A DNA stretch of 42,514 bases, taken from a virus. Positions 7,642 to 42,514 of the stretch are shown one piece after another (positions within the stretch are counted from its first letter, which is position 1; each line of letters opens with the position of its first letter). The notes under the pieces are model-generated. The model was not told the DNA's origin. It saw only the letters and a program-made list of their open reading frames with translations, and did no database searches. The stretch lies in the IMG/VR virus record IMGVR_UViG_3300044846_000322, positions 1-42,514 of that record; one strand, given 5' to 3'. Position numbers and translations under genes: made by a program.

Positions 7642-7989
7642 ATGAAAAAAGAACAAAACATGGAGCAGGAAGAACAGAAGGTTCCTACCAAAGAAGAGAT
7701 CATTGCTTTTATTAAAGAGCAGATTGAAGTGAAAACTGTGCAGCTAGAGTTGCAAGAGTTAAACACTGGACTAGCTAGTGCAAGAGCAGAAGAGCTTAAA
7801 GCTTTAGCATTTATTGCACAGATGACCCAACAAGGAGGAGCTAAACCAGAAGGCACCCCTCACACTATTACACAAGAAGATATGGATAATAATCCAGAAC
7901 TTGTAGAAGAGGGTATTAAGGTGGGAGACGAAGTGATTATTCCTTCTATGCCTCCTACAGAAAAAAGATCTTTAAAGAAAGACAAATAA
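7642..7989 (+). CDS. Small helical protein, unknown
   Basis: A 115-residue protein, strongly Glu/Gln/Lys-rich in residues 1-70 (I-K-E-Q-I-E-V-K-T-V-Q-L-E-L-Q-E-L), so a long helix or coiled coil is likely. A short C-terminal region with V-G-D-E-V-I-I-P-S-M-P-P follows. The start is preceded by AACAAACCAAAA, the A-rich leader type typical here in place of a Shine-Dalgarno site. Members of this type sit near the packaging genes of related phages, with no known role. It lies 19 bases after the previous gene. Confidence 0.65.
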   Translation: MKKEQNMEQEEQKVPTKEEIIAFIKEQIEVKTVQLELQELNTGLASARAEELKALAFIAQMTQQGGAKPEGTPHTITQEDMDNNPELVEEGIKVGDEVIIPSMPPTEKRSLKKDK

Positions 7990-14538: not shown

Positions 14539-17289
14539 ATGCAGATATATAATGCTCTAGATCTTAAATCTGGGAAAAAGGCGGATTATAACAAAATGGG
14601 TACACTTACCCAGCCTGTCCAGTTTATATCTGAAAAGGAAAAAGACGAAGAGTGGAGATCTTGGAACCTAGATTGGCTAGAATTTCAAGGAATGAAACAG
14701 CTTAGACGTAATGCTCGTAGACTCATGAAGAACTACAAGCTTGCTAAAGGTATTATTGACAAAGCTGATTATATTGTAGAAGAGGATAATGAGATGGCAG
14801 ATCTTATTGACACACTTACAAAAGAAGATGAATCTGCTTTAGAACTTAAGTTTTATCCTATTATTCCTAACGTAATTAACGTATTATGTAATGAGTTTTC
14901 CAAAAGAAGCTCACGTATTATGTTTAAAGCTATGGATGACATCTCTCATAACGAGATGATGGAAGAAAAGCGTGGTATGGTGGAGAAAGTCTTGCTTGAA
15001 GATGCTGAAAGGAAGATGATGATGGAGATGATGGCTATGGGTATTGAGCTTGACTCTGAAGAAATGCAGAAAGCATTAGCTCCAGAAAGCTTACAACAAC
15101 TTCCTGAGATTGAAGGATTCTTCCGTAAAGACTACAAGTCTATGATTGAGCAATGGGCTAGTCATCAGATGTCTGTAGACGAGGAAAGATTTAAACTACA
15201 AGAATTAGAAGAGCGTGGATTTAAAGACATGCTTATTACAGATAGAGAGTTCTGGCATTTTAAAATGAATGAAGATGACTATGAACTAGAACTTTGGAAC
15301 CCACTTTTAACTTTTTATCATAAGTCTCCAGATGTTAGATACATCTCCCAAGGTAATTGGGTCGGTAAGATGGATATGATGTCCGTATCGGACGTTATTG
15401 ACAAGTATGGATGGATGATGAACGAGGAACAAATGGAGTCCTTAGAAGCCATCTATCCGGTCCGTTCAGCAGGCTATGCTGTACAGGGTTACCAGAATGA
15501 TGGTACTTATTATGATCCTACTAAATCTCATGATTGGAATACAGAAATGCCATCATTGGGGTATAGACAATATGCTTCTTTATACGACACTAAGTTTGGT
15601 ACAGGAGATATTGTAGAATGGATCTTATCAGACTCAGAAGACACTGTAGATTTTGGTAAGACTCATCTATTACGTGTTTCTACTATTTATTGGAAGAGTC
15701 AACGTAAGATAGGTCACTTAACTAAGATTACAGAAGAAGGAGAAATTATACAGGATATCATCACTGAAGAATATAAAGTGACAGATAAGCCTTTGTATAA
15801 TACATCTATATACAAACAAAAGTCCAAAGATAACTTAATCTTTGGTGAACATATTGACTGGATTTGGATTAATGAAACATGGGGTGGAGTGAAGATTGGT
15901 CCTAATAGACCAGCGTTTTGGGGTATGAATAACCCAGGTGGCATCAATCCAATTTATTTGGGACTGAATGGTGGCAAACCAGGAAGAGTTCCGTTCCAGT
16001 TTAAAGGAGATGCAACATTATATGGCTGTAAACTACCAGTGGAAGGTTCTGTGTTCGGTGATCGTAATACCCGCAGTATTTCATTGGTAGATCTTATGAA
16101 ACCATACCAGATAGGCTATAACATTGTAAATAACCAAATAGCAGATATCTTAGTTGATGAGCTTGGTACGGTTATTATGTTGGACCAGAACTCTTTGCCT
16201 CGTCACTCCATGGGAGAAGATTGGGGTAAAAATAATCTGGCCAAAGCCTATGTGGCTATGAAGAACTTCCAGATGTTGCCTTTAGATACGTCTATTACAA
16301 ACACTGAGAATGCTCTTAACTTCCAACACTATCAAGTGTTGAACCTAGAACAAACTAACCGTTTACTTTCTCGTGTAAACTTAGCAAGTTATTTCAAGAA
16401 CCAAGCTTTTGAGGTGATTGGTCTTAACCCACAACGTATGGGCCAAGCTATTGCACAACAAACAGCTACAGGTATTGAACAAGCTATGTCTGCTTCTTAT
16501 GCACAGACAGAGCAGTATTTCATACAACACTCTGATAACTTAATGCCTAGAGTTCACCAAATGAGAACTGACTTGGCTCAGTATTATCATTCTAACAAAC
16601 CTAGTGTACGTCTTCAGTATATCACTTCTAAAGATGAGAAGGTTAACTTTGAGATTAACGGCACTGAGTTGTTAATGAGAGACTTAAACATATTCTGCAC
16701 CACTAAGACTAATTCTCGTGCTGTAATGGAGCAGCTTAAACAACTAGCTATTAACAATAACACCACTGGTGCTTCTATATATGATCTAGGTAATGTTATT
16801 AAGTCTGAGTCTATTGCAGAACTTACTGGTGTTCTTAAGAATGCAGAACAAAAGGTACAGTCTCAGAAAGAATCTGAAATGCAGCAGCAACAAGAAATGC
16901 AGAAGCAGATGATTGAGTCTCAAGAGAAGCAGAAAGCAATGGATCTTCAGTTTAGATCTGAACAAGCTGATATGGATAGACAAACACAGCTTACAGTGGC
17001 AGAGATTAGAGCAGCAGGTTATGGTGCCACTGTAGATATTAATCAAAACCAGGTTTCAGATTACCAAGATGCTTTAGAAGGTATTCGTCAGGAACAACGC
17101 TATCAAGATCAGATGAACTTGAAACGTGAATCTGAGATGACTAAGAAAGAACAGGGTAATCAGAAACTACAGATTGAGCGTGAATCATTACAAGCTAGAA
17201 AAGAAATAGCAGACAAACAGTTACAAGTTGCTAAAGAAAATAAAAATAAATATGATGTCTCTAAATCTTCTGATAAAAAGACAAAATAG
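14539..17289 (+). CDS. Portal protein
   Basis: A 916-residue protein, the dodecameric ring at the packaging vertex by family and position. The N-terminal 250 residues are helical and charged, and the central part is beta-rich with many Trp/Tyr (clip and wing). The stem region near 530-640 includes the motif G-L-N-P-Q-R-M-G-Q and an A-M-S-A-S-Y-A helix typical of crAss-like and related portals. The C-terminal ~160 residues (about 760-916) are an extremely Gln/Lys/Glu-rich coiled coil (repeats of M-Q-Q-Q-Q-E-M-Q-K-Q), which probably forms the long barrel projecting into the capsid. The length fits the large portals of these phages. It directly follows the terminase genes. Confidence 0.9.
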   Translation: MQIYNALDLKSGKKADYNKMGTLTQPVQFISEKEKDEEWRSWNLDWLEFQGMKQLRRNARRLMKNYKLAKGIIDKADYIVEEDNEMADLIDTLTKEDESALELKFYPIIPNVINVLCNEFSKRSSRIMFKAMDDISHNEMMEEKRGMVEKVLLEDAERKMMMEMMAMGIELDSEEMQKALAPESLQQLPEIEGFFRKDYKSMIEQWASHQMSVDEERFKLQELEERGFKDMLITDREFWHFKMNEDDYELELWNPLLTFYHKSPDVRYISQGNWVGKMDMMSVSDVIDKYGWMMNEEQMESLEAIYPVRSAGYAVQGYQNDGTYYDPTKSHDWNTEMPSLGYRQYASLYDTKFGTGDIVEWILSDSEDTVDFGKTHLLRVSTIYWKSQRKIGHLTKITEEGEIIQDIITEEYKVTDKPLYNTSIYKQKSKDNLIFGEHIDWIWINETWGGVKIGPNRPAFWGMNNPGGINPIYLGLNGGKPGRVPFQFKGDATLYGCKLPVEGSVFGDRNTRSISLVDLMKPYQIGYNIVNNQIADILVDELGTVIMLDQNSLPRHSMGEDWGKNNLAKAYVAMKNFQMLPLDTSITNTENALNFQHYQVLNLEQTNRLLSRVNLASYFKNQAFEVIGLNPQRMGQAIAQQTATGIEQAMSASYAQTEQYFIQHSDNLMPRVHQMRTDLAQYYHSNKPSVRLQYITSKDEKVNFEINGTELLMRDLNIFCTTKTNSRAVMEQLKQLAINNNTTGASIYDLGNVIKSESIAELTGVLKNAEQKVQSQKESEMQQQQEMQKQMIESQEKQKAMDLQFRSEQADMDRQTQLTVAEIRAAGYGATVDINQNQVSDYQDALEGIRQEQRYQDQMNLKRESEMTKKEQGNQKLQIERESLQARKEIADKQLQVAKENKNKYDVSKSSDKKTK

Positions 17290-26068: not shown

Positions 26069-27274
26069 ATGTCTAAAAAGTTTTTAACAAATCTGGACCT
26101 CACCAAAAATCAGATTTTGAATGTGGCCATCCACAATTTAAGTAGTGCTCCTGCATCTCCCGTAACAGGTCAGGTGTATTTTGACACTACAGATAAGCGT
26201 ATTTACTTCTGGGATAGTTTAGCCTGGGTGGATATGTCTGGGGATATCCAAGATGTTCTTGGTGGAGCCGGTCTTACAGCCTCTACATCAGCTAATGGTG
26301 ACGTGGTTACTCTTGATGTAAACGTAGATAGCGTTACAATTGAGATTAATGCTGACACACTAAGAATTAAAGATCTTGGTGTAAGCACAGGTAAACTAGC
26401 AGATTCTGCAGTTACCACTCTAAAGATCAATGCTAATGCTGTAACTTTTGATAAGTTACAACAGATTGCTAATCTAAGAGTAATTGGTAATGTATCTGGA
26501 TCAACAGCTAATCCAGCTGAGGTGACGATCATCACAGATATGGCTAACTCTAGTACTTCTACATTAGCTACATCTACAGCAATCAAAACATACATTGATG
26601 CTAACGTAGGTAGTCTTGGTAATTTAGAAGGAGCTTGGGATGCATCTAGTGGTTCGTTTCCGGTAGGTTCTAGCCCCGTGGCTGGCACCAAAGCTGGTGA
26701 CTATTGGTATGTATCAGTAGCAGGAACAACTGGCAGTGTAGCCTTTAATGTAGGTGATGTAATTGTTGCTAAGATTAATGCAGCTTCAACATCAGTAGCT
26801 ACAGACTGGATTCAATTAGAAGTAAATAGAGATCAAGCTACTACAACTGTATTAGGATTAGTGTTTATTGCTACAAACGCAGAAACACAAACTGGTACAG
26901 ACACTGTAAAAGCTGTAACTCCTTCTGCTTTATCTGCTCGTACTGCTACAGAAACTCGTACAGGTATTGCAGAGATTGCAACAGATGCTGAGTTAACAAC
27001 TGGTACAGATGATACTAGAATTGTAACTCCTGCAAAATTAAAGACTTATTTAGATAACAGAACTGGTGGTTATGCTGCAAACATTGGAGGTGCTGGCACT
27101 TCTTATGCTTTAACACATGGCTTGAACACTATTGATGTAATCGTGATGATTAAAGATAATACAACATTAGAAGAAGTTATGACAGATGTAGTTATAACTG
27201 ATGTCAACACAGTAACTGTAAGTTTTGCTGTAGCTCCTTCTGCCAATGCGTATCGTGTAATTATCAAGAAATAA
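26069..27274 (+). CDS. Tail fibre-like protein, 401 residues
   Basis: The N-terminus (F-L-T-N-L-D-L-T-K-N-Q-I-L-N-V, 5-19; then R-I-Y-F-W-D-S-L-A-W-V) resembles the particle-binding region of the previous protein. The middle contains a beta region with G-A-W-D-A-S-S-G-S-F-P-V-G-S (about 190-203) and two fibre-type pseudo-repeats (T-G-T-D-T-V-K-A-V-T-P-S-A-L and T-G-T-D-D-T-R-I-V-T-P-A-K-L). The C-terminus (T-H-G-L-N-T-I-D-V-I-V-M-I-K-D-N) is the shared beta domain. It likely forms a trimer. It is a moderately short fibre or a baseplate spike. Confidence 0.75.
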   Translation: MSKKFLTNLDLTKNQILNVAIHNLSSAPASPVTGQVYFDTTDKRIYFWDSLAWVDMSGDIQDVLGGAGLTASTSANGDVVTLDVNVDSVTIEINADTLRIKDLGVSTGKLADSAVTTLKINANAVTFDKLQQIANLRVIGNVSGSTANPAEVTIITDMANSSTSTLATSTAIKTYIDANVGSLGNLEGAWDASSGSFPVGSSPVAGTKAGDYWYVSVAGTTGSVAFNVGDVIVAKINAASTSVATDWIQLEVNRDQATTTVLGLVFIATNAETQTGTDTVKAVTPSALSARTATETRTGIAEIATDAELTTGTDDTRIVTPAKLKTYLDNRTGGYAANIGGAGTSYALTHGLNTIDVIVMIKDNTTLEEVMTDVVITDVNTVTVSFAVAPSANAYRVIIKK

Positions 27275-27284
27275 TAAACTCTGA

Positions 27285-30200
27285 ATGAAATTTCTATCTG
27301 ACATACTAGCTAAAGCTGGTCTGACAGTAGATGGTGTAGTTACACTTAACAATACTGCTACTGGTCAAACACCTGATGCTAACGACAACTCTACCAAGTT
27401 GGCTACAACCGCTTGGGTTAGAGGGTTTGTTACACCCTATTCTTTACCGATAGCGTCTAGTGTCACCCTTGGTGGTATTAAGATAGGTAGTGGTTTAGCT
27501 ATTGATGGAACAGGTGTTGTATCTATAACTACAACTGGTACAGCATCTATTAAGTCTACACAAACTTTTACTGCTACAGCAGCCCAAACTGTATTTACTA
27601 TATCAGGTGGTTATACTGCTGGACTTATTGATGTATTCTTAAACGGTGTATACTTATCTCCTAATCAAACTACAGCTACCAATGGTACTACAGTTACATT
27701 AGCTGACGCAGCTTCATCTGGAGATATTATAGATGTTATTATAACAAGTCCTATTTATCAAGGATCTGTAATCACCACTGATCAACTTCCTGAAGGATCT
27801 ACCAATCTATATTACACTAATGCTCGTGCAAGAGCTGCTATTTCATTAACCACCACTGGTACAAGTGGATCTGCCACTTATAATAGTTCAACAGGAGTGT
27901 TGAACATTCCTAGTTATATAGGAGGTGTTGTATCAATATTTGGAAGAACAGGTACAGTGATTGCTGTGAGTGGTGATTACACCACTACATTAGTAACTGA
28001 AGGAACTAATCTTTATTACACAGATGCAAGAGCTCGTGCCGCTATTAGTGTAACTGGTTCTGGATCTTATGATTCTGCCACTGGTATTATCACTATAACA
28101 GGAGGTGTTACATCATTCAATACAAGAACAGGAGCTATCACTCCTACTTCTGGAGACTACACTACAGCATTAGTTACTGAATCTGGTAACCTATATTACA
28201 CTGATGCTAGAGCTAGAGCAGCAATCAGTTTAACTACCACCGGAACTTCTGGTGCAGCTAGTTATAACAACACAACAGGTGTTCTTAATATACCACAATA
28301 TCAAGGTGGTGTTACTAGTTTCAATACTCGCACGGGTGCTATCACGCTTACATCTTCTGATGTAACTACAGCTTTAACGTACACTCCTGTAACAAATGCT
28401 AGAACATTAACTATTAATGGTGATGCATATGATTTAACAGCTGACCGTACATGGACAATTGGTGTCACTCCTTCTGCTAGAACAATACAAACCTATACAG
28501 CTACGGCTGCTCAAACTACTTTCACTGTAACAGGTGGATATGTAGTGGGACTTGTAGATGTGTTTATAAATGGTGTTAGATTAACATCAGCTGACTTTAC
28601 AGCAACTAACGGAACCACTGTAGTGTTAACTACAGGAACTGGTGTAAACAATATTGTTGATGTAATAAAATATACATCAGCATTTACAGCTACTAATGCA
28701 TTAAGACAAGTAACTAATTTTACAGCCACTGCCGGTCAGACTAGCTTTACAGTTAGTTACACTCCAGGATTAATAGATGTATTCTATAACGGATCTAAAT
28801 TAGTAGCTTCTGAATATACAGCTAGCAATGGTACAACTGTTGTATTAGCTAATGCTGCTGTTCTAAATGACTTATTAGAAATCATATCATATTCCTACAC
28901 AGTAGGAGCATATAGTGGACAAACACAACTTAATGGAACTGGACTAGTAAGAATGTCTGGTACTACAGTGAGTTATGATAATGCTACATATGCTACAGAG
29001 TCTTATGTTACAACAGCTGTAGCTAACTTAGTAGATGCAGCTCCTGCTACATTAGACACATTAAACGAGTTAGCAGCTGCCCTCGGAGACGATCCTAACT
29101 TTGCCACTACAATAGCTACAAGTATAGGTACTAAACAACCTCAGTTAAATGGTACTGGGTTTGTTAAGATTAGCGGAACTACAATTAGTTATGATAACAG
29201 TACGTATTTAACTACAGCTTCTGCAAGTTCAACGTATGTTCCATATACTGGTGCAACTGGTGCAGTAAATCTTGGGGCATATGATTTAAAAGTCAATGGA
29301 TTGACTATAGGAAAAGGTGCTGGTAATCTTGGTCAAAATGTAGCTTTAGGATATAATGTATTAGTTGATAACGCTTCAGGAAATTATAATACTGGAGTTG
29401 GTACAAGTGCATTATCTAGTCTTGGAACAGGTTCTTATAACACTGTAATAGGATATAGTGCAGGAATGAGTATATATTCTGGTTCAAATAATACTATTGT
29501 TGGCATATATGCAGGAGCGTCTACTTTATCAAGTAATGTTATTATAGCTGATGGTGCTGGTAATATAAGATTTCAATGGGATGGTTCAAACATTAAACTA
29601 AATGGTAATACAGTTGGTTCTAATGCTTATACTTCTACTGCTTACCTACCATTAGCAGGGGGAACTTTAACAGGTGATTTATCAATAGCATATACAACCT
29701 CAAACTTGAGATTGTTTCTTAATAATACTACTGCAACAACAGGCAGAAGTTGGTATTTAAATTCTTTTAGTAATGGTAATCTTTATATTGGTAACACAAC
29801 CGCTTCCGATGTATTTAATTTTTCATCAGCTGGTGTAGCTACATTTAGTTACGCATTAAGTGGAACAAGTGCAACATTTAGCAGCACAGGTTCATTTGGT
29901 AATGCTTCATTAAATGGTGCTTATCTTGTTGTTAAAGGTGCAAATGGAGTACCTGCATCAAGTGGTACTACAACAACTGCGGTGTTTAGAGTGTCAAGCG
30001 GTACAGGCTTATATAATGTTCTTGATTTTGGAACTAATGAATCGGATGATTATTCTTGGATGCAATCAACAAGAGCAAATAGTTTAGGAACTTATGATAG
30101 ATTATTAATTCAACCTAATGGTGGTGCAGTAAGAATAGGAGGCACAGGCACAACATCTTATAAATTACTTGTTGATGGAACACTTGGAGTAACAGGAGCA

Positions 30201-31631
30201 GCTACATTCTCTAGTAGTATTACAAGTACATCAGGAAACATAACAGCAAATGGAGATATTGTAGCAAACTCAGGTAGTTCTACAGCAGTTTATGTTTATA
30301 ATGCTAGTTCTGTTAGAGCTAAATTAAGCATGACTGGTAATGAAGGAGACTTATCATTATATGGCTCTTCTGCAAATAGACTTGTTTATTTATCAGCTTA
30401 TTATGATTCATATATTGTTGCAGGAAAAGTTGGTATAGGAACTACAGGTCCTGTAGCTAAATTACACGTTGAAGGAAGTACTGCAATTGGAACAACGGGT
30501 ACCGAAGATATACTAATTTTAGGTAGAGCAATAGGTGGCGGTGCCTCTTTTCAACAAGCAGCTTCTTTAAAACTTGGTAGGTATCAAAATGCGGGAGGTT
30601 CGTTTGAATCATATACACGATTAGATTTTGCATTAAGAGATAATAGTGCGGCTAGTAATTATAATACTAACACTACCGTAATGACTCTTACAAATGCAGG
30701 GAGTGTTGGAATTGGAAGCGTAAATCCTTTAACTTTTGTTGAAGTAAGAAAAGGCGGTACTTCTACAACACCAACTAATCTTTTTGGAGGTAATCCTACA
30801 ATATCTGTTATTAGTGGGGAGCCAGGTATTGCTTTTTCAAGTAACATTGTAGCAGCAACTGGAGCAGTAAGTACTTCACAGACAGCACTAGCCGGTGTTG
30901 GATTTACTTATATTAACTCAACAAGCCCAACTGAATTTAATATAGGAATATATGGAGCTCCAACTGTATCATCAAATGTTACATTTTGGAATCAGACTGA
31001 ACGTATGCGTATTGCTAGTAATGGTGCTATTACAATGTTAGTACCTACAGGTGGACAGACTTTATCAATTTTTGGAAAAAATAATAACTGGTGTGAAGAA
31101 GTAATTGGGTCATCTACTACAGGTCAATCTTATGGGTTGCTAGTAACTGCTGGAACTAACAGTGCTGACTATTCATTTTACGTACAAAATCAAGCAGGTA
31201 CAAGTCCTTCTTTTAGAATACGAGGTGATAGTTTAGTAGCTTTTCCAAAGATTAACGATTTTACTACTGGTAACTCTCCTAATACATGGATCAACCCAGC
31301 ATCAAGTTATGGTATTTATATTAATACATCATCAATTAGATATAAGAGAGATGTAATTAATTATGATAAAGGTCTATCTATAGTTGATCAACTAAGACCA
31401 GTATATTATAAAGGTACATCTGAAGTAGATGGTGATAAGCAATTTGCTGGATTTATAGCTGAAGAAGTTAATGATTTAGGTTTAACAGAATTTGTTAACT
31501 ATTTAGATGATGGTAGACCAAACTCTTTATCATATCCAAATATGTTAGCATTAGCAGTAAAAGCTATTCAAGAACTTAAAACTCAGAATGATTTATTAAA
31601 GGATAGACTAGATAAAAATAACATTAACTAA
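27285..31631 (+). CDS. Giant tail fibre with peptidase S74 chaperone
   Basis: A 1448-residue protein. The N-terminus holds T-T-A-W-V-R-G-F-V and S-L-P-I-A-S-S-V-T-L-G-G-I-K; repeats of Y-T-N/D-A-R-A-R-A-A-I-S follow (about 180-320). Then come the shared module L-D-T-L-N-E-L-A-A-A-L-G-D-D-P-N-F (about 583-599), a YadA-head-like N-T-x-x-G stretch near 690-760, G-N-V/K-V-G-I-G-T-T repeats, and the C-terminal S74 domain from residue about 1349 (S-S-I-R-Y-K-R-D, with the Ser-x3-Lys dyad; Q-F-A-G-F-I-A-E-E-V; terminal coiled coil). S74 domains trimerise the fibre and cut themselves off, so the mature protein should end near residue 1349. Confidence 0.9.
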   Translation: MKFLSDILAKAGLTVDGVVTLNNTATGQTPDANDNSTKLATTAWVRGFVTPYSLPIASSVTLGGIKIGSGLAIDGTGVVSITTTGTASIKSTQTFTATAAQTVFTISGGYTAGLIDVFLNGVYLSPNQTTATNGTTVTLADAASSGDIIDVIITSPIYQGSVITTDQLPEGSTNLYYTNARARAAISLTTTGTSGSATYNSSTGVLNIPSYIGGVVSIFGRTGTVIAVSGDYTTTLVTEGTNLYYTDARARAAISVTGSGSYDSATGIITITGGVTSFNTRTGAITPTSGDYTTALVTESGNLYYTDARARAAISLTTTGTSGAASYNNTTGVLNIPQYQGGVTSFNTRTGAITLTSSDVTTALTYTPVTNARTLTINGDAYDLTADRTWTIGVTPSARTIQTYTATAAQTTFTVTGGYVVGLVDVFINGVRLTSADFTATNGTTVVLTTGTGVNNIVDVIKYTSAFTATNALRQVTNFTATAGQTSFTVSYTPGLIDVFYNGSKLVASEYTASNGTTVVLANAAVLNDLLEIISYSYTVGAYSGQTQLNGTGLVRMSGTTVSYDNATYATESYVTTAVANLVDAAPATLDTLNELAAALGDDPNFATTIATSIGTKQPQLNGTGFVKISGTTISYDNSTYLTTASASSTYVPYTGATGAVNLGAYDLKVNGLTIGKGAGNLGQNVALGYNVLVDNASGNYNTGVGTSALSSLGTGSYNTVIGYSAGMSIYSGSNNTIVGIYAGASTLSSNVIIADGAGNIRFQWDGSNIKLNGNTVGSNAYTSTAYLPLAGGTLTGDLSIAYTTSNLRLFLNNTTATTGRSWYLNSFSNGNLYIGNTTASDVFNFSSAGVATFSYALSGTSATFSSTGSFGNASLNGAYLVVKGANGVPASSGTTTTAVFRVSSGTGLYNVLDFGTNESDDYSWMQSTRANSLGTYDRLLIQPNGGAVRIGGTGTTSYKLLVDGTLGVTGAATFSSSITSTSGNITANGDIVANSGSSTAVYVYNASSVRAKLSMTGNEGDLSLYGSSANRLVYLSAYYDSYIVAGKVGIGTTGPVAKLHVEGSTAIGTTGTEDILILGRAIGGGASFQQAASLKLGRYQNAGGSFESYTRLDFALRDNSAASNYNTNTTVMTLTNAGSVGIGSVNPLTFVEVRKGGTSTTPTNLFGGNPTISVISGEPGIAFSSNIVAATGAVSTSQTALAGVGFTYINSTSPTEFNIGIYGAPTVSSNVTFWNQTERMRIASNGAITMLVPTGGQTLSIFGKNNNWCEEVIGSSTTGQSYGLLVTAGTNSADYSFYVQNQAGTSPSFRIRGDSLVAFPKINDFTTGNSPNTWINPASSYGIYINTSSIRYKRDVINYDKGLSIVDQLRPVYYKGTSEVDGDKQFAGFIAEEVNDLGLTEFVNYLDDGRPNSLSYPNMLALAVKAIQELKTQNDLLKDRLDKNNIN

Positions 31632-34408
31632 TGAGCAAGAACACACAGATAGGTGAGTTAATTAACTACATCTCTTATGATGGTAGTGGTAATGTGGTAT
31701 TTACTACTGTATCAGCCGCTACTACTAATACTGATAAGTTCTTAGTATCTGATGCTGGTACATTGAAATATAGAACAGCTGCTCAATTATTATCTGATAT
31801 AGGATCTCAACCTGCTTTATCAGGAACCGGCTTTGTAAAGATAAGTGGCACCACTATATCATACGATAATAGTACTTACGCCACACAAACTTATGTTGGT
31901 ACAGCAATAAGTAATCTAGTAGATTCTTCTCCAGCAACACTAGACACTCTTAATGAACTAGCCGCTGCTTTAGGTGATGATCCAAACTTTGCTACAACAG
32001 TAGCTACTAGTATTGGAACTAAACAGCCACAACTAAACGGTACAGGTTTTGTAAAGGTAACGGGAACTACAGTGTCTTATGACAACTCTACATATCTAAC
32101 TACAGGTACAGCTGGAACTACTTATGTCCCTTATACAGGAGCTACCGGTAATGTTAATCTAGGAGTTTATAATTTAGCTGGTGGTAATGTTAACATTAAC
32201 GGAGGTGGTTCTGGCGGTGGTGCTCTTAGACTAAAACAATTTGGAAGTTCAGAAGCTAACCTTGAAGGTTACAATAGCATTAGCACTTTAACAAGTGGTG
32301 TATTTTATTTTACATCTTCTGCTTCTGTTCCTAATTTTAAAAACTTTGCATTAAACCCTAGCGGCTTAACAGATAATACATTAAGAACATATACTCTTCC
32401 TGATGCTTCAGGTACGCTTGCATTAACTAGTGATCTTCCTTCTGTATCTGGTGTTTACCTACCTCTTGCTGGTGGTACACTTACTGGACCTTTGGCTGGT
32501 ACTACTAGTGCATGGAATGGATATGCTATTAATGCAACTCCACCTTCAGTAGGAACAGCTCAAACATTTGTAAGATATATAAACGCAGGTTCAGACTGGT
32601 ACATAGGATCAGAAAGTTCTGTTGCAGGTGGTTTTTTTGCTGGAGCATCAGCTTATGCAAGTGTACTCTTTGGTCAAAATCCTTTTCAGTTTATTACTGG
32701 TGGAGTAAAAAGATTTGAAATAGCAACAGGAGGTATTACATCTACTGTTGGTTTTACAGGAACTAGTGCTATATTCAGTTCATCAGTTGCGGCAACTACA
32801 TTAACATTAAGTACAACAACTGCTGATTATGCTGCTACTATTACAAACGTACAAGATTCATCTCAAGGTTTATTAGTAAGAGCAACAGATAATGATACAA
32901 GTTTATATCTACTCAATCTTCAAAGTTCAAATGGTGCTACATCTCAAACTTGGGTAGATAAATTTGTTGTAACTAAAGGTGGTAACGTAGGTATAGGAAC
33001 AACCACAATTGACCAATTATTACAAGTAGCAGGTAATATTAGTTTAGGTAGATATAATGTTGGTACAAGTAGATATATAGGAATAACAAATGGTGGTGGG
33101 GGATTTGGAGATAGTAGCGGTTCACATATTGAATTTACTTCTCCAAGTGGGACAAGTAATGGTATCAATTTTTATACTTATAATGGTACTACTTATTCTG
33201 CAAAACTCACCATAGCATCCACAGGAGCAGCTACATTTAGTTCAAGTGTAACTGCAGCACAATTTTTAGCTACAAGTAATAATAATAATGCAGCTATAAT
33301 AACTTCAACAGGAACAGCAGGTTATGGTTTAGTTGCAGTAGGTTCAAGTGGTGGAGCAAGAGATATTTTACTTGCGGGTCAAAGTGGATTTTCAAATGGA
33401 TTTACTGTTCAATATACAGGAACAGAAATGATATATGGGTTTCTAAGTGGTAATGTAGGTATTGGAATTGTTCCTCAAGGTCTTCTTGATGTTTATAAAT
33501 CTACATCTGGTGGTTTAGGTGGTCATATATATCTAAGAAATAATGGTGCTGCTGTTGGTAATGAAATGGCTGTAATGTTTGTAGATGGAGATGCAAGTAC
33601 TATGAGAGCCGCCATTTCTTCAACAACTGAAGGAGCTCCATATTTTGGTGATATTAAGTTTAAAACTGGTCTTGGTACTTATGCTTCACTTAATACCAGA
33701 ATGACAATTAGTGGTGAGGGTAAAGTAGGAATTGGTTTTACTCCTAGTTATAAATTACAAGTAGCGGGAGAAATTACAACTCATGCAGGTACTAATACAA
33801 CCTATTATGCCTATATGAATTATTTGGGTACAACTTATAATTTTGGAAGTAGTGAAAATACAGATAATGTTGATTTTAAAGTAGCCGGTGGTACTACTTG
33901 GACTACAGGAGGTAACATTAGATTTTGGACACAAGCAGGTGCTTCAACCCCATTAGAAAGAATGAGTGTTACTAGTAGAGGAACTATATTTAATAAACAA
34001 TATGTAGGAACTAACCTAATGGGTGGCTATTCATTAATAGGTACAATTTCACCTGGTAATACTGGAAATGGATTTTTACATGTACGTATTAATACTATTG
34101 TTAATATGATGGTTTGGATTAAAGTTTTTGGATACAGTTATGTTTACGGCTTAATAGAAGGAATGTGTGGTGGATATATAGGTGGTGGAACGGGTGGTGT
34201 AAACCAAGGATTTATAAATGGAAGTATAGCAGCACAATACCAGAATGGCAATTTTTTAGAAGTTGTGGTGAGTTTAGGTGGTGCTGGTGCTACAAGTAAT
34301 AGATGGGGAAGTGTTACCTTTTTAGGTGGTACAGATACTATTGCAAGTGTACAACCTCTTGAAATATCAGCATATTCTTTTACATCAACAGCTGATAGAG
34401 TTTATTAA
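31631..34408 (+). CDS. Tail fibre with G-N-V-G-I-G repeats, 925 residues
   Basis: The start overlaps the previous stop by one base (TAATG). The N-terminus I-N-Y-I-S-Y-D-G-S-G-N-V-V-F is shared in form with the next fibre genes and is probably the virion attachment strand. Residues 58-180 hold two copies of the G-T-G-F-V-K-I/V-x-G-T-T-I/V-S-Y-D-N-S module separated by L-D-T-L-N-E-L-A-A-A-L. A beta region with G-N-V-G-I-G-T-T and K-V-G-I-G-F-T-P repeats follows. The C-terminal ~120 residues are Gly/aromatic-rich (G-G-Y-I-G-G-G-T-G-G-V-N-Q-G-F), a likely receptor-binding tip. No S74 domain is present. Confidence 0.85.
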   Translation: MSKNTQIGELINYISYDGSGNVVFTTVSAATTNTDKFLVSDAGTLKYRTAAQLLSDIGSQPALSGTGFVKISGTTISYDNSTYATQTYVGTAISNLVDSSPATLDTLNELAAALGDDPNFATTVATSIGTKQPQLNGTGFVKVTGTTVSYDNSTYLTTGTAGTTYVPYTGATGNVNLGVYNLAGGNVNINGGGSGGGALRLKQFGSSEANLEGYNSISTLTSGVFYFTSSASVPNFKNFALNPSGLTDNTLRTYTLPDASGTLALTSDLPSVSGVYLPLAGGTLTGPLAGTTSAWNGYAINATPPSVGTAQTFVRYINAGSDWYIGSESSVAGGFFAGASAYASVLFGQNPFQFITGGVKRFEIATGGITSTVGFTGTSAIFSSSVAATTLTLSTTTADYAATITNVQDSSQGLLVRATDNDTSLYLLNLQSSNGATSQTWVDKFVVTKGGNVGIGTTTIDQLLQVAGNISLGRYNVGTSRYIGITNGGGGFGDSSGSHIEFTSPSGTSNGINFYTYNGTTYSAKLTIASTGAATFSSSVTAAQFLATSNNNNAAIITSTGTAGYGLVAVGSSGGARDILLAGQSGFSNGFTVQYTGTEMIYGFLSGNVGIGIVPQGLLDVYKSTSGGLGGHIYLRNNGAAVGNEMAVMFVDGDASTMRAAISSTTEGAPYFGDIKFKTGLGTYASLNTRMTISGEGKVGIGFTPSYKLQVAGEITTHAGTNTTYYAYMNYLGTTYNFGSSENTDNVDFKVAGGTTWTTGGNIRFWTQAGASTPLERMSVTSRGTIFNKQYVGTNLMGGYSLIGTISPGNTGNGFLHVRINTIVNMMVWIKVFGYSYVYGLIEGMCGGYIGGGTGGVNQGFINGSIAAQYQNGNFLEVVVSLGGAGATSNRWGSVTFLGGTDTIASVQPLEISAYSFTSTADRVY

Positions 34409-34440
34409 TATATTAAGATGTATAAAAAAGTAATTAACTA

Positions 34441-36636
34441 ATGGGAAATACAAGAGATACCGGATACTTAAGAAACCTCGTAGCATACGATGGTAGTGGT
34501 AATATTACATTACCAGCTAATCTAACTGTAACAGGTAGTATAGTGGGGTATGCCACTACGTCTTATGTAACCACTCAGATTAATAATTTAATTAACGGAG
34601 CACCCGGTCTATTAGATACATTAGATGAGCTTGCTGCTGCATTGGGTGACGATGCTAACTTTGCATCTACTATCACTACATCATTAGCTGGTAAACAATC
34701 CACTTTAACTTTTACAGGTCCATTAGTTAATACAAGTGGAACAATAACTATCACTCAGTCAAGCGGTTCTACAAACGGATTCCTATCTAACACTGATTGG
34801 ACTACATTTAATAGTAAGCAATCAACATTAACATTTTCAGGACCTTTAGTAAATACATCAGGTACTATTTCTATAACCCAATCAAGTGGGTCAACAAATG
34901 GTTACTTATCAAATACGGATTGGACTACGTTCAATAATAAACAAGCTGCTCTTAGTGGAACCGGTTTTGTTAAAATATCTGGTACAACTATATCTTATGA
35001 TAATAGTACATATCTTACTACAGCTAGTGCTTCTTCTACATATCAAACTATTTTAACTAATCCAGTAACGGGTACAGGTACTAATAACTATATTCCTAAG
35101 TTTACTACAACAGGAAGTACAATAGGTAATAGTGTAGTTTATGATAATGGTAGCCAAATTGGTATTAGTCAAACAACTTTATTTGTTAAGTTTTCTATTT
35201 CTGATAGTTTAGCTGCTACAAGCGTAGGATCAAACTATAATCCAGGTATTATAAATATACAAAATACTAATACTACAAATGGAAACTTATCCTTAATAGG
35301 TTTCCAAGATGCAAGTGGTTTTATTAATCTTGCAGCTTTTGGAGCTATTAATGAAGTACATAGTTCAAGTCCTAATAATGTTAAAGGATCTTTAGCCTTT
35401 TATACAAAGAATAGCGGTACTAGTTATGTGATAGAGAAAATGAGGCTAACTGCTTCAGGTAATTTAGGTATAGGAGTTGCTGATCCTGATACAACTTTAG
35501 AAGTAAGAAACCCAAACTTATCTACAGATACAGTAAATACTTTATTAACTCAAAGATGGTCAAGGCAGCAAACTGGTGCTGTTAAATGGGGTAACTCGAT
35601 GGATTTATTGCTTGGTAGTTATGAGAGCGGTATTATTAGTTCCCGAACCAGAGTTGATTTTAGATTGGCAAATGGAAATACTGATGACCCTGATACAACA
35701 GTACTAACATTACAAGGAAACGGTAATGTTGGTATTGGCATAACGTCTCCAAGTTATAAATTTAGCGTAAACGGAATTGGTAGTTTTGCAGGTAGTGGAA
35801 CTGTAACTGGAACTGTATATATACAAGCAGGTCATCAATGGTCATTAAATGCAGACCAAAGTGGTGGTGGAAGTCCAGCTTTTGCAGGTAGTGGTTTTTA
35901 TATTAAAAATGAAAATACTTCTACTATTGCTCTTGGATTTAATACTGGAGGAGCAGCTACTTTTGTAAGCAGTGTATCAGCTACAAGTTTTAATGCAAAT
36001 GTTTCTTCTTTTGGTACTGATATATCTGCTAACAGTACAATAAGAGTAGGTAGTGGTTTTGCTACACAAGCTTCTATTATTTTTGGAGATGCAGGTACTC
36101 CTTATTGGAGTGTTGGAAGACCGGCAGGAAGTGGTAATTTATCTATAAGTAGTTATGCTTTAACAGCTTTAACAATACAACCTACTACAGGAAATATAGG
36201 TATGGGAACTACAAATCCATATACTAAATTAGATGTAAGAGGTGCTATAGGGATGGGAGGGGGAGCTACTTATCCATTAAATGCAAGACTGGTAAAACAA
36301 GGTGTTACATCAGTTACGTTTACAGCAACTTTAGGTACTATAGGTGCTTGGAGACCAGGGCATGTAATGATTAAAGTATCAGGTGGTCAAAATGGATTGC
36401 AAGAATATTGGGCAGCTTGGTTCTTTGTAAGAATTATTGCGTATGTAGCATCTAGTGTAATATGTACAGTTGTTGATTCAGGTGGTGAAACAGGTGCTGT
36501 TTCATTTTCAAGTACTAGTGATACTAACTCACCACAAACAGTAACTTTTACTTTGACAGATGGTGGTGGTACTACAAATACAATAATAGCAGATATAGAT
36601 TTAACTTATAATGAAGGAATAGTTTCTTTATCATAA
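34441..36636 (+). CDS. Tail fibre with tandem 41-residue repeats
   Basis: A 731-residue protein. The N-terminus L-V-A-Y-D-G-S-G-N-I-T-L-P-A-N-L-T-V matches the other fibres. A diverged L-D-T-L-D-E-L-A-A-A-L-G-D-D-A-N-F module (about residues 60-76) is followed by two adjacent 41-residue repeats (34699-34821 and 34822-34944; F-x-G-P-L-V-N-T-S-G-T-I, N-T-D-W-T-T-F-N), then the G-T-G-F-V-K module and G-N-V-G-I-G-type repeats. The tip (last ~115 residues; V-T-F-T-A-T-L-G-T-I-G-A-W) differs from the other fibres, consistent with an exchangeable receptor-binding domain. Confidence 0.85.
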   Translation: MGNTRDTGYLRNLVAYDGSGNITLPANLTVTGSIVGYATTSYVTTQINNLINGAPGLLDTLDELAAALGDDANFASTITTSLAGKQSTLTFTGPLVNTSGTITITQSSGSTNGFLSNTDWTTFNSKQSTLTFSGPLVNTSGTISITQSSGSTNGYLSNTDWTTFNNKQAALSGTGFVKISGTTISYDNSTYLTTASASSTYQTILTNPVTGTGTNNYIPKFTTTGSTIGNSVVYDNGSQIGISQTTLFVKFSISDSLAATSVGSNYNPGIINIQNTNTTNGNLSLIGFQDASGFINLAAFGAINEVHSSSPNNVKGSLAFYTKNSGTSYVIEKMRLTASGNLGIGVADPDTTLEVRNPNLSTDTVNTLLTQRWSRQQTGAVKWGNSMDLLLGSYESGIISSRTRVDFRLANGNTDDPDTTVLTLQGNGNVGIGITSPSYKFSVNGIGSFAGSGTVTGTVYIQAGHQWSLNADQSGGGSPAFAGSGFYIKNENTSTIALGFNTGGAATFVSSVSATSFNANVSSFGTDISANSTIRVGSGFATQASIIFGDAGTPYWSVGRPAGSGNLSISSYALTALTIQPTTGNIGMGTTNPYTKLDVRGAIGMGGGATYPLNARLVKQGVTSVTFTATLGTIGAWRPGHVMIKVSGGQNGLQEYWAAWFFVRIIAYVASSVICTVVDSGGETGAVSFSSTSDTNSPQTVTFTLTDGGGTTNTIIADIDLTYNEGIVSLS

Positions 36637-36655
36637 TAAATAACAATTAGATATA

Positions 36656-39600
36656 ATGAACAAACAAAGGAAGACCTCCCATATACTTAATGTATTTCAG
36701 TATGATGCTGATGGACACGTTGTGTTACCAGCAAGTCTTACTTTAACTGTACCTCCTGCGGGTAATGATAATAGTGCTAAGGTGACCACTACTGCATGGG
36801 TGCGTACATACGTTTCCGGTCTTAGTTATCAAGGAGCTATAACACTTACTGTTACAGGAACTAGCGGTGCAGCTACATTAGTAGGTAATACATTAAATAT
36901 ACCCACTTATACATTAGCCGGTTTAGGTGGTCAAGCAGCTTTGAGTGGAACTGGTTTTGTAAAGATATCAGGTACCACTATATCCTACGATAATAGCACA
37001 TATGCTACAGAAACTTATGTAGGCACTGCCATTTCTAATTTAGTTGATAGTTCACCTGCTACTCTTGATACACTTAACGAACTTGCTGCAGCTCTTGGGG
37101 ATGACCCTAATTTTGCAACAACTGTTGCTACATCTATTGGTACAAAACAAGCTCAGCTTAATGGCACTGGTTTTGTAAAAGTAAGTGGTACTACTGTATC
37201 CTATGATAACTCTACCTACTTAACTACTGCTACAGGTAGTAGTACATATGTTCCTTACATAGGAGCAACAACGGCAGTTAATTTAGGTGCTTTTGATTTA
37301 ACGGTAAATGAATTAACAATAGGCAAAGGGTTAAGTGCATTGTCAAATAATACTGCATTAGGTTATAGAAGTTTATATCATACTACAACTGGTAACTTTA
37401 ATACTTCAGTAGGTTATCAATCAGGGCATAATATTACTACAGGTCAATATAATACTACATTAGGGCAGTCGGCTATGTTTACCAATAATACAGGTAGCCA
37501 AAATACTGCAATCGGTGTAAATTCATTATTAAACAATACTTCAGGTAGTTCAAACGTTGCGGTTGGTTTAGATGCAATGCAACATAATACAACTGGTAAT
37601 TCAAATACTGCTTTAGGTTATAATGCAGGTAGTCATCTTACAAATGGTATTACTCCAAATGAAACTACATCAACTTCTGTTTATTTAGGTCGAGATACAA
37701 AAGCAAGTGCAAGTGGTAATGCAAATGAAACAGTAATAGGATATAATGCAATCGGAAACGGAAGTAATACAGTTACAATCGGTAATTCATCCGTAACTGC
37801 AAACTATTTAAAAGGTTCAGTAAATGCAGGTTCATTTGTTAAGACTGGTGGAACTTCATCTCAGTTTTTAAAAGCAGATGGTAGTGTTGATTCAAATACT
37901 TATTTAACAACAAGCTCAGCTAGTACAAGTTATGTTCCTTATACTGGTGCTAGTACAGATTTAGTATTAGGAGCTAATAATTTTTCAGCAAAGAGAGTAA
38001 GTGTATTAAAGTCTTCAGATGGATATAGCGGGTTTACATCAAACTATTTATTTCTACAGACAGGTTCATCTACAACAAATGTAGGAACTGATGGTATATC
38101 TTTATTTAGTAAGCCAAACACAAGAGCATTAGTAATAAACTATGATATTGGTGGAACGAACTATAGTGCTACATTAGATGCAGCTTTATTAACTGCAAGT
38201 AGAACATTTGAGTTTCCTAATGCGTCAGGTACACTAGCTCTTACTAGTGGTATTCCTACTAACAATAATACACTTACTAATGGAGCGGGATATGTTAACA
38301 CAAGTGGTTCACCTACTACTAGTTACATACCTAAATTTACGGGTGCAACTACTATAGCTAATAGTTTAATATATGACACCGGTAGTGTTATACTAATAGG
38401 AGCTACAACAGCTAGTGATAATCAATCTAAATTAGAACTAATTAGTTCTGGAACTGTTGGATTAAAGATTAAAAGCTCTGGTGTAAACGGTAATAATACA
38501 TTCTTATCTATAGAGAGTTCTAAAGAATGGAGATTTCTTACTAACCGTGGTGATCTAATATCAGGTAATCAAGGAGACTTAATCATTAGAAATAATACAG
38601 ATGGTATTAATCATATTATTTTAAATCAAAGTGGAGCTACTACTTTTTATGGTGCATTGAGTGGAACTAGTGCTACATTCTCTAGTAGTGTAGGTGCAAC
38701 AAGTTTTAATTTAGGCAATGGTCAGTTTTTAAGATTAACTAGAAACTCTGGAGCTTTACAATATGATGCATTTGGAATTGTAGCAGGTACTGATAATACT
38801 AGAATTATATCTACTGGAGATTTTGATATAGTAAATGGAAGTTTAACTAGTCAATTTAAAATAGCTTCTACAGGAGCAGCTACATTTAGTGTGCCAAGAA
38901 CAAATGGAACAAACGCAACTTCTATTATATTATCAGATAATTTAACAGGAGTTAGTACTCCTGGTTATGGAACAAGAATAGTAGGTTATTCTAATGGCAA
39001 TAGTGTACAATCTGTAATAGGATTTGAAAATGGAGGAACAGGTACTAATAATGAATCTCAGTTATCTTTTTATACTCAAAATGTTGCTGGTAGTTTAACA
39101 AGACAATTATTAATAACTTCTACTGGTGTTGCTAATTTTTCTAATAGAATAGAAATTATATCTAATGGAGGAACTAATCCAGTTTTAGCAATTAGACAAA
39201 CTAATGCTGCTACACAAGGTTATGATTTTGAAACTGAAGATGTGAGTGTAGGTAGATTAGATCTATACGGGGTTACTTCTGGGGGAAGAGTACAAATGAT
39301 GACTTGGATAAAGGCAAATGGAAGGGTTGGAATAGGTGCTATTGCACCAAAAACAAAATTACAGGTAACTCCCGTATCAAACGCAGAAGTTCCAGTCTTA
39401 GGAACCGCCACCGGTGTGGCAATATTTACCTCCGCAAATACCAATTACGGACTACAATTTAATAGTACATCCGATGGTTCTTTTCATATACAATCCCAAA
39501 GATTTGACGCTAGTGCAACCGCATATAATCTTATTCTAAATTATGCGGGAGGTAATATAGGAATTGGAGGAAACACTGCTCCAGGTTGTTCACTTGATAT

Positions 39601-40480
39601 TGGTTCGAGAACTGATGCAATTGCAATACCTAAAGGGACAACCGCTCAAAGACCGGGTTCACCATCTTCAGGTATGGGTAGGTTCAATACTGAGATAAGT
39701 AAAACTGAATTTTATAATGGTACTGTTTGGGTTGCAATTGGAGGTGCTGGTGACGGATCAACATCATCATCTGCAGCATCATCAGCTAAGGCAATTAAAG
39801 CTGCCGTAGGTAACCCAACAAGTGGTGTTTATTGGTTACAAATTCCAAACGTAAATGGTGGTAACGCTTTTCAATGTTATTGTGACTTTACTATGAATGG
39901 CGGTATTGGTTATGCCATTATTGTCAATCAGTACTTTACAGGTCCAGAAACAGGACCATCACACGCTAATTTCGCAAGTTCAACTATAGGTACTGCTGGT
40001 TATGATACTGAATATATCATATCACCAAGTGCAATGTTAGCAAATTACGGGGTAACTAAATTAGCGGTATTTGCAAGAGTTGGCGGTAGTTCAAGTGGTG
40101 GTATTGCTAATGCAACATATACTAATTGGGTAGCGTTTTCTGGGCCAACATCAACACAATATAATACAATATTTACACAAGGATTTGGTAGTACTCAATT
40201 TACTGGATCATTTGTTTCCGCTGATGGAAATACGGGAACCGCATATTTTCCAAACAGTCACGGAAATACTGGAGGTGTAACACAAATAACAACAAATGGT
40301 GGTACTGTAAATGATTATCTTCTTTATGAATATAATGCTAATGGTGGATCTGACCCTAATCACTTTTGGATGGTATTAAATGGTAGAAGTGGTGATACCT
40401 ATTGGGCTGGAAATACTAGATATGGTAGTAGTAGTGGTAACGTAATGTATAATAGATGGGGTGGAGTTGCACTTTATTAA
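36656..40480 (+). CDS. Giant tail fibre ending in a fibrinogen-like domain
   Basis: A 1274-residue protein. The N-terminus V-F-Q-Y-D-A-D-G-H-V-V-L-P-A-S-L has the attachment motif. Two G-T-G-F-V-K-x-S-G-T-T modules (about 98-117, 169-187) flank L-D-T-L-N-E-L-A-A-A-L-G-D-D-P-N-F. Residues about 232-325 are four to five repeats of N-T-A-x-G-x-x-S-L ... T-G-x-x-N, the YadA-type head repeat that stacks into a trimeric beta roll. The C-terminal ~230 residues (from about 1045; N-P-T-S-G-V-Y-W-L-Q-I-P, F-Q-C-Y-C-D-F-T-M-N-G-G) match a fibrinogen-related domain, a glycan- and peptide-binding fold. It is probably an adhesin for the host surface. Confidence 0.85.
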   Translation: MNKQRKTSHILNVFQYDADGHVVLPASLTLTVPPAGNDNSAKVTTTAWVRTYVSGLSYQGAITLTVTGTSGAATLVGNTLNIPTYTLAGLGGQAALSGTGFVKISGTTISYDNSTYATETYVGTAISNLVDSSPATLDTLNELAAALGDDPNFATTVATSIGTKQAQLNGTGFVKVSGTTVSYDNSTYLTTATGSSTYVPYIGATTAVNLGAFDLTVNELTIGKGLSALSNNTALGYRSLYHTTTGNFNTSVGYQSGHNITTGQYNTTLGQSAMFTNNTGSQNTAIGVNSLLNNTSGSSNVAVGLDAMQHNTTGNSNTALGYNAGSHLTNGITPNETTSTSVYLGRDTKASASGNANETVIGYNAIGNGSNTVTIGNSSVTANYLKGSVNAGSFVKTGGTSSQFLKADGSVDSNTYLTTSSASTSYVPYTGASTDLVLGANNFSAKRVSVLKSSDGYSGFTSNYLFLQTGSSTTNVGTDGISLFSKPNTRALVINYDIGGTNYSATLDAALLTASRTFEFPNASGTLALTSGIPTNNNTLTNGAGYVNTSGSPTTSYIPKFTGATTIANSLIYDTGSVILIGATTASDNQSKLELISSGTVGLKIKSSGVNGNNTFLSIESSKEWRFLTNRGDLISGNQGDLIIRNNTDGINHIILNQSGATTFYGALSGTSATFSSSVGATSFNLGNGQFLRLTRNSGALQYDAFGIVAGTDNTRIISTGDFDIVNGSLTSQFKIASTGAATFSVPRTNGTNATSIILSDNLTGVSTPGYGTRIVGYSNGNSVQSVIGFENGGTGTNNESQLSFYTQNVAGSLTRQLLITSTGVANFSNRIEIISNGGTNPVLAIRQTNAATQGYDFETEDVSVGRLDLYGVTSGGRVQMMTWIKANGRVGIGAIAPKTKLQVTPVSNAEVPVLGTATGVAIFTSANTNYGLQFNSTSDGSFHIQSQRFDASATAYNLILNYAGGNIGIGGNTAPGCSLDIGSRTDAIAIPKGTTAQRPGSPSSGMGRFNTEISKTEFYNGTVWVAIGGAGDGSTSSSAASSAKAIKAAVGNPTSGVYWLQIPNVNGGNAFQCYCDFTMNGGIGYAIIVNQYFTGPETGPSHANFASSTIGTAGYDTEYIISPSAMLANYGVTKLAVFARVGGSSSGGIANATYTNWVAFSGPTSTQYNTIFTQGFGSTQFTGSFVSADGNTGTAYFPNSHGNTGGVTQITTNGGTVNDYLLYEYNANGGSDPNHFWMVLNGRSGDTYWAGNTRYGSSSGNVMYNRWGGVALY

Positions 40481-40803: not shown

Positions 40804-42514
40804 TTGTTTACAACTGACTCACTTGGTAACATATATTTTCCTGCTGGACTATCACTAGCTTCTATACCTGCTACTACTGGTACACAGGCTAGAGTTCTTG
40901 TGCCTGGAGTTAACGGTAGGATATCATCTGCTACAGTGGCACAGCTTATTACACAGAGTGGTAGTAATCTTGTTAGTTCTGTATTTGGTAGAACCGGAGC
41001 AGTTGTTGCAAAATTTGGAGACTATACTACAGATCAAATAACAGAAGGTAGACATGCTTTGTATTTTAGTATTGATAGAGTTAGAAAAGCTATAGCCTTA
41101 ACTACATTTAATACATCTGGTCCGGCTACTTATGATAGTGTTACAGGTATACTTAATATACCACAGTATGGATCAGGTACGGCTAGTCCTACTAACTTTG
41201 TTCCTCTTACAAGAACTATAACCATTAATGGTCAAACAGCTGATTTATCTAGAGATAGGATATTTAGTGTAGCTTCAATGGTTTATCCATCTACAGGTAT
41301 AGCTTTATCTAATGGTGTTTCATGGGAACCAAGTATAGTTAACAACTCTGCTAATTGGAATACAGCTTATGGTTGGGGTAATCACGCTATAGCTGGCTAT
41401 GCATTAGATACTCAAGTAGTACATATTACAGGAGCAGAAACTGTTGCTGGATTAAAAACATTTACATCTGCTGTAAAAGCTCCTAATTTTATTTTATCTG
41501 GAGGTACAGGAAATACTGGTATGTACTTTGGTCATACTGATAGATTAGTACTTGCTAACTACGGAGTAGGCGGAATAGATTTTGAAAGTAATGGTGGTGT
41601 AATTAATGGTACATTATTTCCTAGTGGTAACTGGGCATTTAGTACTAGTGCAATAGATGATACAATTAATAGAGTACAAGTAGGTGGTTATATTATAGCC
41701 ACTGGCTATAGAATCCCTTCAGGTACAGTTTCACAATTTTTAAAAGCTAATGGCTCTATAGATAGTACTAGTTATACACCTACAAGTAGGACACTAACTA
41801 TTAACGGAACTGCTTATGATTTAACAGCAGATAGATCTTGGACAATAGCTGCATATATATTACCAATAGCTAGTACAACGGTACTAGGTGGAATTAAAGT
41901 AGGTACTAATTTATCTATTAATGCAACTACTGGTGTTTTAGATGCAACATTTACATACACTTTACCTATTGCAAGTGCTACGGTTCTTGGAGGAATAAAG
42001 GTTGGATCTAATTTATCTATAGATGCTAATGGGATTCTTTCTGCTGGAAACAGTTATGTGCTTCCAATAGCATCTGCTTCAGTGCTAGGAGGAATTAAAG
42101 TAGGAACTAACCTTAGTATAGACGCAAACGGTGTTTTATCTTCAACAGATACTAATACAACCTACGTTAACTTTACAAGAACAGTAGCAGGTCTTGTTCC
42201 TAATCCTGGAGGATCAACCACTACTCGTTATTTACGAGAAGATGGTACGTGGGTAATACCACCAGATACCGATACTGACACAATTTATGTTCATCCAACT
42301 ACTGCTGGTAATAAACATATTCCTGCAGGAGGTGCAGCTGGTCAGATATTAAGATATTCATCAGATGGTACAGCAGTATGGGGAGCTGATAATGATACTA
42401 CTTATGTAGTTTTTACAAGAAGTGCTAATGGATTAGCTCCAGCAGCTCCAGCAGGAGCAGGAACTACTAAGTATTTGAGAGAAGATGGAACATGGCAAGT
42501 TCCTCCTGATACAG
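40804..42514 (+). CDS. Tail fibre, N-terminus short, cut by window end
   Basis: An open frame runs from TTG at 40804-40806 to the window end (570 codons), with an in-frame TAA immediately upstream. There is no ATG before the region homologous to the other fibres' attachment segment (F-T-T-D-S-L-G-N-I-Y-F-P-A-G-L-S-L aligns with Y-D-G-S-G-N-I-T-L-P-A-N-L). The usual first ~15 residues are therefore missing, and a TTG start or a small disruption must be assumed. Later there are L-I-T/V-F-G-R-T-G-A-V-V fibre motifs, three tandem V-L-G-G-I-K-V-G-x-N-L-S-I repeats (about 41850-42140) and two R/K-Y-L-R-E-D-G-T-W units near the edge. The 3' end is not in the window. Confidence 0.75.
   Translation, partial: MFTTDSLGNIYFPAGLSLASIPATTGTQARVLVPGVNGRISSATVAQLITQSGSNLVSSVFGRTGAVVAKFGDYTTDQITEGRHALYFSIDRVRKAIALTTFNTSGPATYDSVTGILNIPQYGSGTASPTNFVPLTRTITINGQTADLSRDRIFSVASMVYPSTGIALSNGVSWEPSIVNNSANWNTAYGWGNHAIAGYALDTQVVHITGAETVAGLKTFTSAVKAPNFILSGGTGNTGMYFGHTDRLVLANYGVGGIDFESNGGVINGTLFPSGNWAFSTSAIDDTINRVQVGGYIIATGYRIPSGTVSQFLKANGSIDSTSYTPTSRTLTINGTAYDLTADRSWTIAAYILPIASTTVLGGIKVGTNLSINATTGVLDATFTYTLPIASATVLGGIKVGSNLSIDANGILSAGNSYVLPIASASVLGGIKVGTNLSIDANGVLSSTDTNTTYVNFTRTVAGLVPNPGGSTTTRYLREDGTWVIPPDTDTDTIYVHPTTAGNKHIPAGGAAGQILRYSSDGTAVWGADNDTTYVVFTRSANGLAPAAPAGAGTTKYLREDGTWQVPPDT

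Follow-up and report, generated by a model that had tools for sequence, protein, structure and literature searches.

Tail fibre genes of a phage carry a shared stem module with the same protein in different codons

Mosaic tail fibres, in which a conserved front is joined to an exchanged tip, are known in the T-even phages and in P2, Mu and P1. Fibres of solved structure include gp4 in PDB entry 9d93, the tail collar fibre of a Bxb1-type phage. With respect to codon choice, Ackermann and Chao (2006; PMC1378130) described synonymous coding that avoids mononucleotide repeats. Herein, we describe a row of fibre genes in which one stem module recurs, with little or no change in protein in three of its four copies, and with largely different codons.

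The window, i.e. the whole stretch of DNA analysed, corresponds to IMG/VR virus record IMGVR_UViG_3300044846_000322 (42,514 bases), in which packaging and head genes lie at approximately 12-20 kb (PHROG matches to terminase, portal and major head protein) and the fibre row extends from 27 kb. The portal (14539-17289) is 22-24% identical to portals of crAss-like phages and 33% identical to that of Leptolyngbya phage Lbo-JY46, with near-identical and 77-93% relatives abundant in IMG/VR; an ORF at 9484-10323 matches exonuclease PHROG phrog_298 and possibly belongs to a recombination system. The fibre row and its landmarks are as follows:

26069..27274, + strand: tail structural ORF, adjoining the fibre row upstream, without the module (PHROG tail-fibre/collar matches)
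27285..31631, + strand: fibre gene A, 1448 aa (ORF; PHROG tail fibre matches)
29019..29135, + strand: module core, copy A (VANLVDAAPATLDTLNELAAALGDDPNFATTIATSIGTK)
31329..31493, + strand: Peptidase_S74 (endosialidase-type chaperone), C-terminus of A (Pfam PF13884, 24.9 bits, cut-off 22)
31631..34408, + strand: fibre gene B, 925 aa (ORF; PHROG tail fibre matches)
31907..32023, + strand: module core, copy B (ISNLVDSSPATLDTLNELAAALGDDPNFATTVATSIGTK)
34441..36636, + strand: fibre gene C, 731 aa (ORF; PHROG tail fibre matches)
34579..34695, + strand: module core, copy C, diverged (INNLINGAPGLLDTLDELAAALGDDANFASTITTSLAGK)
36656..40480, + strand: fibre gene D, 1274 aa (ORF; PHROG tail fibre matches)
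37031..37147, + strand: module core, copy D, protein same as copy B
39782..39904, + strand: fibrinogen-like YCDxxxxGGGW domain, C-terminal part of D (NCBIfam NF040941, 37.2 bits, cut-off 30)
40804..42513, + strand: fifth fibre-like ORF, running past the window end (distant homology to A)

The visible part of the fifth ORF does not contain the module core. The fibrinogen-like domain near the C-terminus of D is a candidate surface-binding tip. Relatives of the window were found with the tail structural ORF (26069..27274) as an anchor, at identities from 98% down to approximately 53%.

A preliminary description of this DNA had singled out a 40-residue segment as identical in protein between genes B and D, and this was confirmed: 31904-32023 and 37028-37147 both translate to AISNLVDSSPATLDTLNELAAALGDDPNFATTVATSIGTK, with 11/40 codons in common and a longest exact run of 6 nt. 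The two further copies that it had placed near 29020-29140 and, in diverged form, near 34580-34680 are also real. Copy A (29019-29135) agrees with B and D at 35/40 residues, with 13 codons in common, while copy C (34579-34695) is identical at 25/40 residues and has 7 codons in common with B and 13 with D. A chance origin of the module protein identity is excluded; by BLASTP, the homology extends over approximately 120-130 residues around it (244 for A-D).

The module is widespread, occurring in 663 phage records (phages of Mycobacterium, Gordonia, Escherichia and Klebsiella among them), at least 596 viral stretches and 212 prokaryote-genome stretches from many phyla, with nine columns invariant across 43 diverse copies. 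It is covered by PHROG tail-fibre families; neither Pfam nor NCBIfam holds a model covering it. A PDB-sequence profile search returned solved relatives in 9d93 ("Tail collar fibers, gp4", E=3e-23) and 6v8i ("Fiber Upper, gp68", E=7e-11), with both of which the window shares the L-V-D-S-x-P-x-T-L-D-T-L-N-E-L-A-A-A-L-G-D-D core. Monomer prediction placed three short helices (segment residues 29-42, 44-58 and 63-79) between the beta strands of shaft repeats at moderate confidence (pLDDT 72, pTM 0.27); a Foldseek search with this model returned no hit with an E value below 5. We infer that the module may act as a joint of helices within the stem or, alternatively, as a trimer-stabilising element.

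By BLASTP, homology from gene to gene is essentially confined to one stretch of 50-240 residues around the module, the tips being unrelated:

28920..29288, + strand: A stretch homologous to B (BLASTP A 546-668 to B 60-182, 123 residues, 79%)
31790..32176, + strand: B stretch homologous to D (BLASTP B 54-182 to D 87-215, 129 residues, 86%)
36914..37300, + strand: D stretch homologous to B (BLASTP)

Homology between A and D extends further (244 residues, 59%; A aa 537-780), and BLASTP detected none between B and D beyond the 129-residue stretch. As almost no homology lies outside the module stretch, the fibre genes are not recent whole-gene duplicates, and recent whole-gene tandem duplication was rejected; the "tandem fibre genes" of the preliminary description are better described as genes that share a stem module and have unrelated tips. 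The neighbouring non-repeat segments, from which the preliminary description would date the duplication, are not homologous and provide no such date.

Comparison with close relatives yields a similar division along A, B and C. From the front through and past the module, A, B and C are mostly 92-100% identical in nucleotides to their counterparts, with a few blocks lower; downstream of this front, their identity to relatives L324 and L167 drops abruptly to approximately 45%, i.e. to the level of unrelated sequence. The approximate junctions are the following:

29085..29384, + strand: junction in A versus L167, from ~99% to ~47% nt (50-codon-block profile, ~aa 600-700)
32381..32680, + strand: junction in B versus L324 and L167 (identity profile, ~aa 250-350)
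34891..35190, + strand: junction in C versus L324 (identity profile, ~aa 150-250)

In gene A, the drop against L167 comes just after the module, and that against L324 approximately 180 residues later. Where two genes carry modules of one DNA type, tip homology is absent in 77/132 pairs. Pairs of the same gene order share C-terminal parts more often (19/393) than pairs of different order (22/1402), the pairs not being independent. These are mosaic fibres in which the front is kept and the tip replaced; the exchanged parts would be the receptor-binding tips.

At silent sites, the module cores of the window paralogues differ with a pS of 0.57-0.87, that of B-D (0.81) lying past Jukes-Cantor correction; silent sites among the window copies are therefore saturated or nearly so. 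Between close orthologues, all core changes are silent: the 195 codons compared (A, B and C versus L324 plus A and B versus L167; dS 0.07-0.14) show 15 such changes and no amino-acid replacement. Copies A, B and C have 35-37/39 codons in common with their counterparts in L164, L166 and L167; the closest DNA relative of D is carried by another phage, L219 (108/117 nt identical, 80 of them in one uninterrupted run). Codons thus follow gene lineage across phages, implying that separation of the copies predates the divergence of these phages. Together, these results support well one of two readings offered in the preliminary description, namely that the copies are ancient and strongly constrained as protein.

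The ordinary explanation, i.e. an old and strictly conserved stem module with saturated silent sites in mosaic fibres, is in our judgement the probable one. Each of A-D would comprise a conserved front, the stem module that all four share and a C-terminal tip that is unrelated or swapped. The module itself would be an ancient element from which many fibres are built, its protein under very strong purifying selection. The window copies would have split before the sampled relatives diverged, via either an old duplication or separate acquisition; thereafter, the protein would have stayed fixed and its silent sites would have drifted until saturated, hence the same protein in different codons.

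Another potential source of the pattern is the arrival of the genes from different donor phages with their own codon habits, such that it would reflect local codon dialect only. Leucine codons indeed differ by copy (TTA in A, CTA in B, CTT in D), the nearest DNA relative of D sits in another phage, and much of the apparent codon deficit disappears with local composition (for the extended B-D stretch, the expectation drops from 45.5 to 39.6 once this is held). However, counterparts of A, B and C occur together in other clade phages, as do those of A and D, pointing to a long co-resident set, and the rest of the difference would still need saturation. We consider dialect as the whole cause to be unlikely.

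Selection against DNA identity, the other reading in the preliminary description, seems to us quite unlikely. On this reading, copies that match over more than approximately a dozen bases would recombine, with loss of the intervening genes; match-breaking silent changes, or acquisitions already dissimilar, would be favoured, leaving co-resident copies less alike than chance predicts. For B-D, whose P values need the caveat that this pair was selected because it stands out most among the six, the 11 identical codons seen compare with 16.7±3.0 expected from random codon draws under structural-gene usage (P=0.043) and 19.4±3.0 under fibre-gene usage (P=0.003); over a 42-residue stretch with whole-gene codon usage, the values are 11 versus 20.1 (z=-2.97). 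With local codon composition held, the extended B-D stretch gives 35 seen versus 39.6 expected (P=0.16), and the remaining window pairs give P values of 0.26-0.82. The codons of B and D do not differ by much more than chance would predict. Exact k-mer repeats across all four genes are not depleted relative to within-gene synonymous shuffles (k=14, 28 versus 43±16, P=0.19; k=20, 2 versus 5.7, P=0.40), and direct exact repeats of 21 nt (33221/38870) and 18 nt (30201/38672) connect fibre genes. With local composition held, the window does not need selection against repeats.

For the clade, complete fibre rows from relatives provided 33 co-resident gene-type pairs, which share lineages and are not fully independent. 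Calibration of clade fibres against those of unrelated phages gave a mean z of 0.00 with gene usage and 0.20 with local composition (1350 pairs). Against this, co-resident type pairs show a mean z of -1.08 with gene usage (28/33 negative) and -0.55 with local composition held (22/33 negative; p ~0.012-0.017), while the same type pairs across contigs show -0.10 (paired p=0.028); high-similarity between-contig comparisons were not used as controls because they include partly orthologous pairs. Within the clade, co-resident copies thus share slightly fewer codons than a composition-preserving shuffle predicts, a shortfall not expected from plain saturation. Within contigs, the longest exact match falls on average at the 37th percentile of shuffles, with 20/49 pairs in the lowest fifth. 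Synonymous avoidance of mononucleotide repeats (PMC1378130) is a precedent for coding choices that reduce instability; our literature search on the motif letters and on between-copy repeat avoidance yielded nothing direct.

Other comparisons weigh against repeat avoidance. Two further, small and partly overlapping sets showed no recurrence of the deficit, with mean z values of +0.17 (10 type pairs) and -0.25 (9 type pairs), neither significant, and at the core level the same type pairs do not differ in codons within versus across genomes (p=0.29). Exact fibre repeats of 41-42 nt are present in relatives L347, L336 and L338; elsewhere, in L004, L024, L240 and L247, same-contig fibre genes contain long recent duplications with exact runs of 71-102 nt, meaning that strong internal fibre-gene repeats are tolerated somewhere. 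Anti-repeat coding as the main cause was rejected, as gene- and composition-level shuffles, k-mers, exact runs and comparisons within and between contigs leave only a weak hint: the clade codon deficit hints weakly at something beyond plain saturation, to which coding that avoids repeats would contribute at most a weak extra effect.

A more speculative possibility, which we regard as very doubtful, is that the different module spellings serve as position-specific recombination addresses, permitting tip exchange with other phages at the same position while keeping low the gene-deleting exchange between neighbours; the latter may be limited through weak selection or because look-alike copies are lost. 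Front conservation with tip replacement at the same position, same-order C-terminal sharing and the small clade deficit are all compatible with such addresses, though C-terminal sharing across positions also occurs, so any isolation is not strict.

That a shared binding partner pulls co-resident modules to the same amino acids while their DNA stays different is extremely improbable: among 215 distinct cores, every case of identical protein with at most 13/39 common codons does involve gene types that are co-resident (B/D of the window, the L164 and L167 orthologues of B versus D, and L013), but when the same type pairs are compared, their protein identity is no higher within genomes than across them (mean +0.37 residues, p=0.49), and protein-level concerted evolution of co-resident copies was dropped on this same lack of excess. 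L013 is a second genome with two protein-identical modules, at 7882 and 11512, with 13/39 codons in common.

Ultimately, the window shows how far silent sites can drift while a fibre protein stays fixed. Fibre genes that are co-resident and have identical stem modules constitute a data set for testing selection against internal phage repeats. Were avoidance true, codon choice would be tied to the stability of multi-fibre phages; at present, the ordinary explanation suffices.

Among known systems, the module of 9d93 and 6v8i is the same by sequence, with LVDSAPSTLDTLNELAAALGDDPNFATTVASQIG aligning with the window at E=2e-13 as a single sequence and 3e-23 as a profile. The match is limited to the module, however; the window proteins are much longer, are encoded by four genes in a row and come from an unrelated phage. 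With fibres that carry an S74 endosialidase-type chaperone, the resemblance concerns gene A, the only one of the four with a C-terminal Peptidase_S74 above the curated cut-off; B, C and D have no Pfam match to this domain. In the work of Ackermann and Chao, the common idea is that synonymous choice lowers DNA instability; theirs concerns mononucleotide runs, whereas the question in the window concerns identity between gene copies, for which avoidance is quite unlikely. The constant segment Sc of phage P1 tail-fibre gene S contains a relative of the module stretch (54.7% identity over query residues 2-74), so that in P1, too, a module relative lies in a fibre gene whose front is constant and whose end varies. 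In P1 that end varies through site-specific inversion, which takes place at cix sites; a system of this kind was not identified in the window, where the variation is between phages. Finally, the window resembles the mosaic fibres of T-even phages and P2/Mu/P1 in its conserved fronts followed by abrupt loss of identity, and differs from them in having several such genes per genome, built on one stem module carried in separate DNA lineages.
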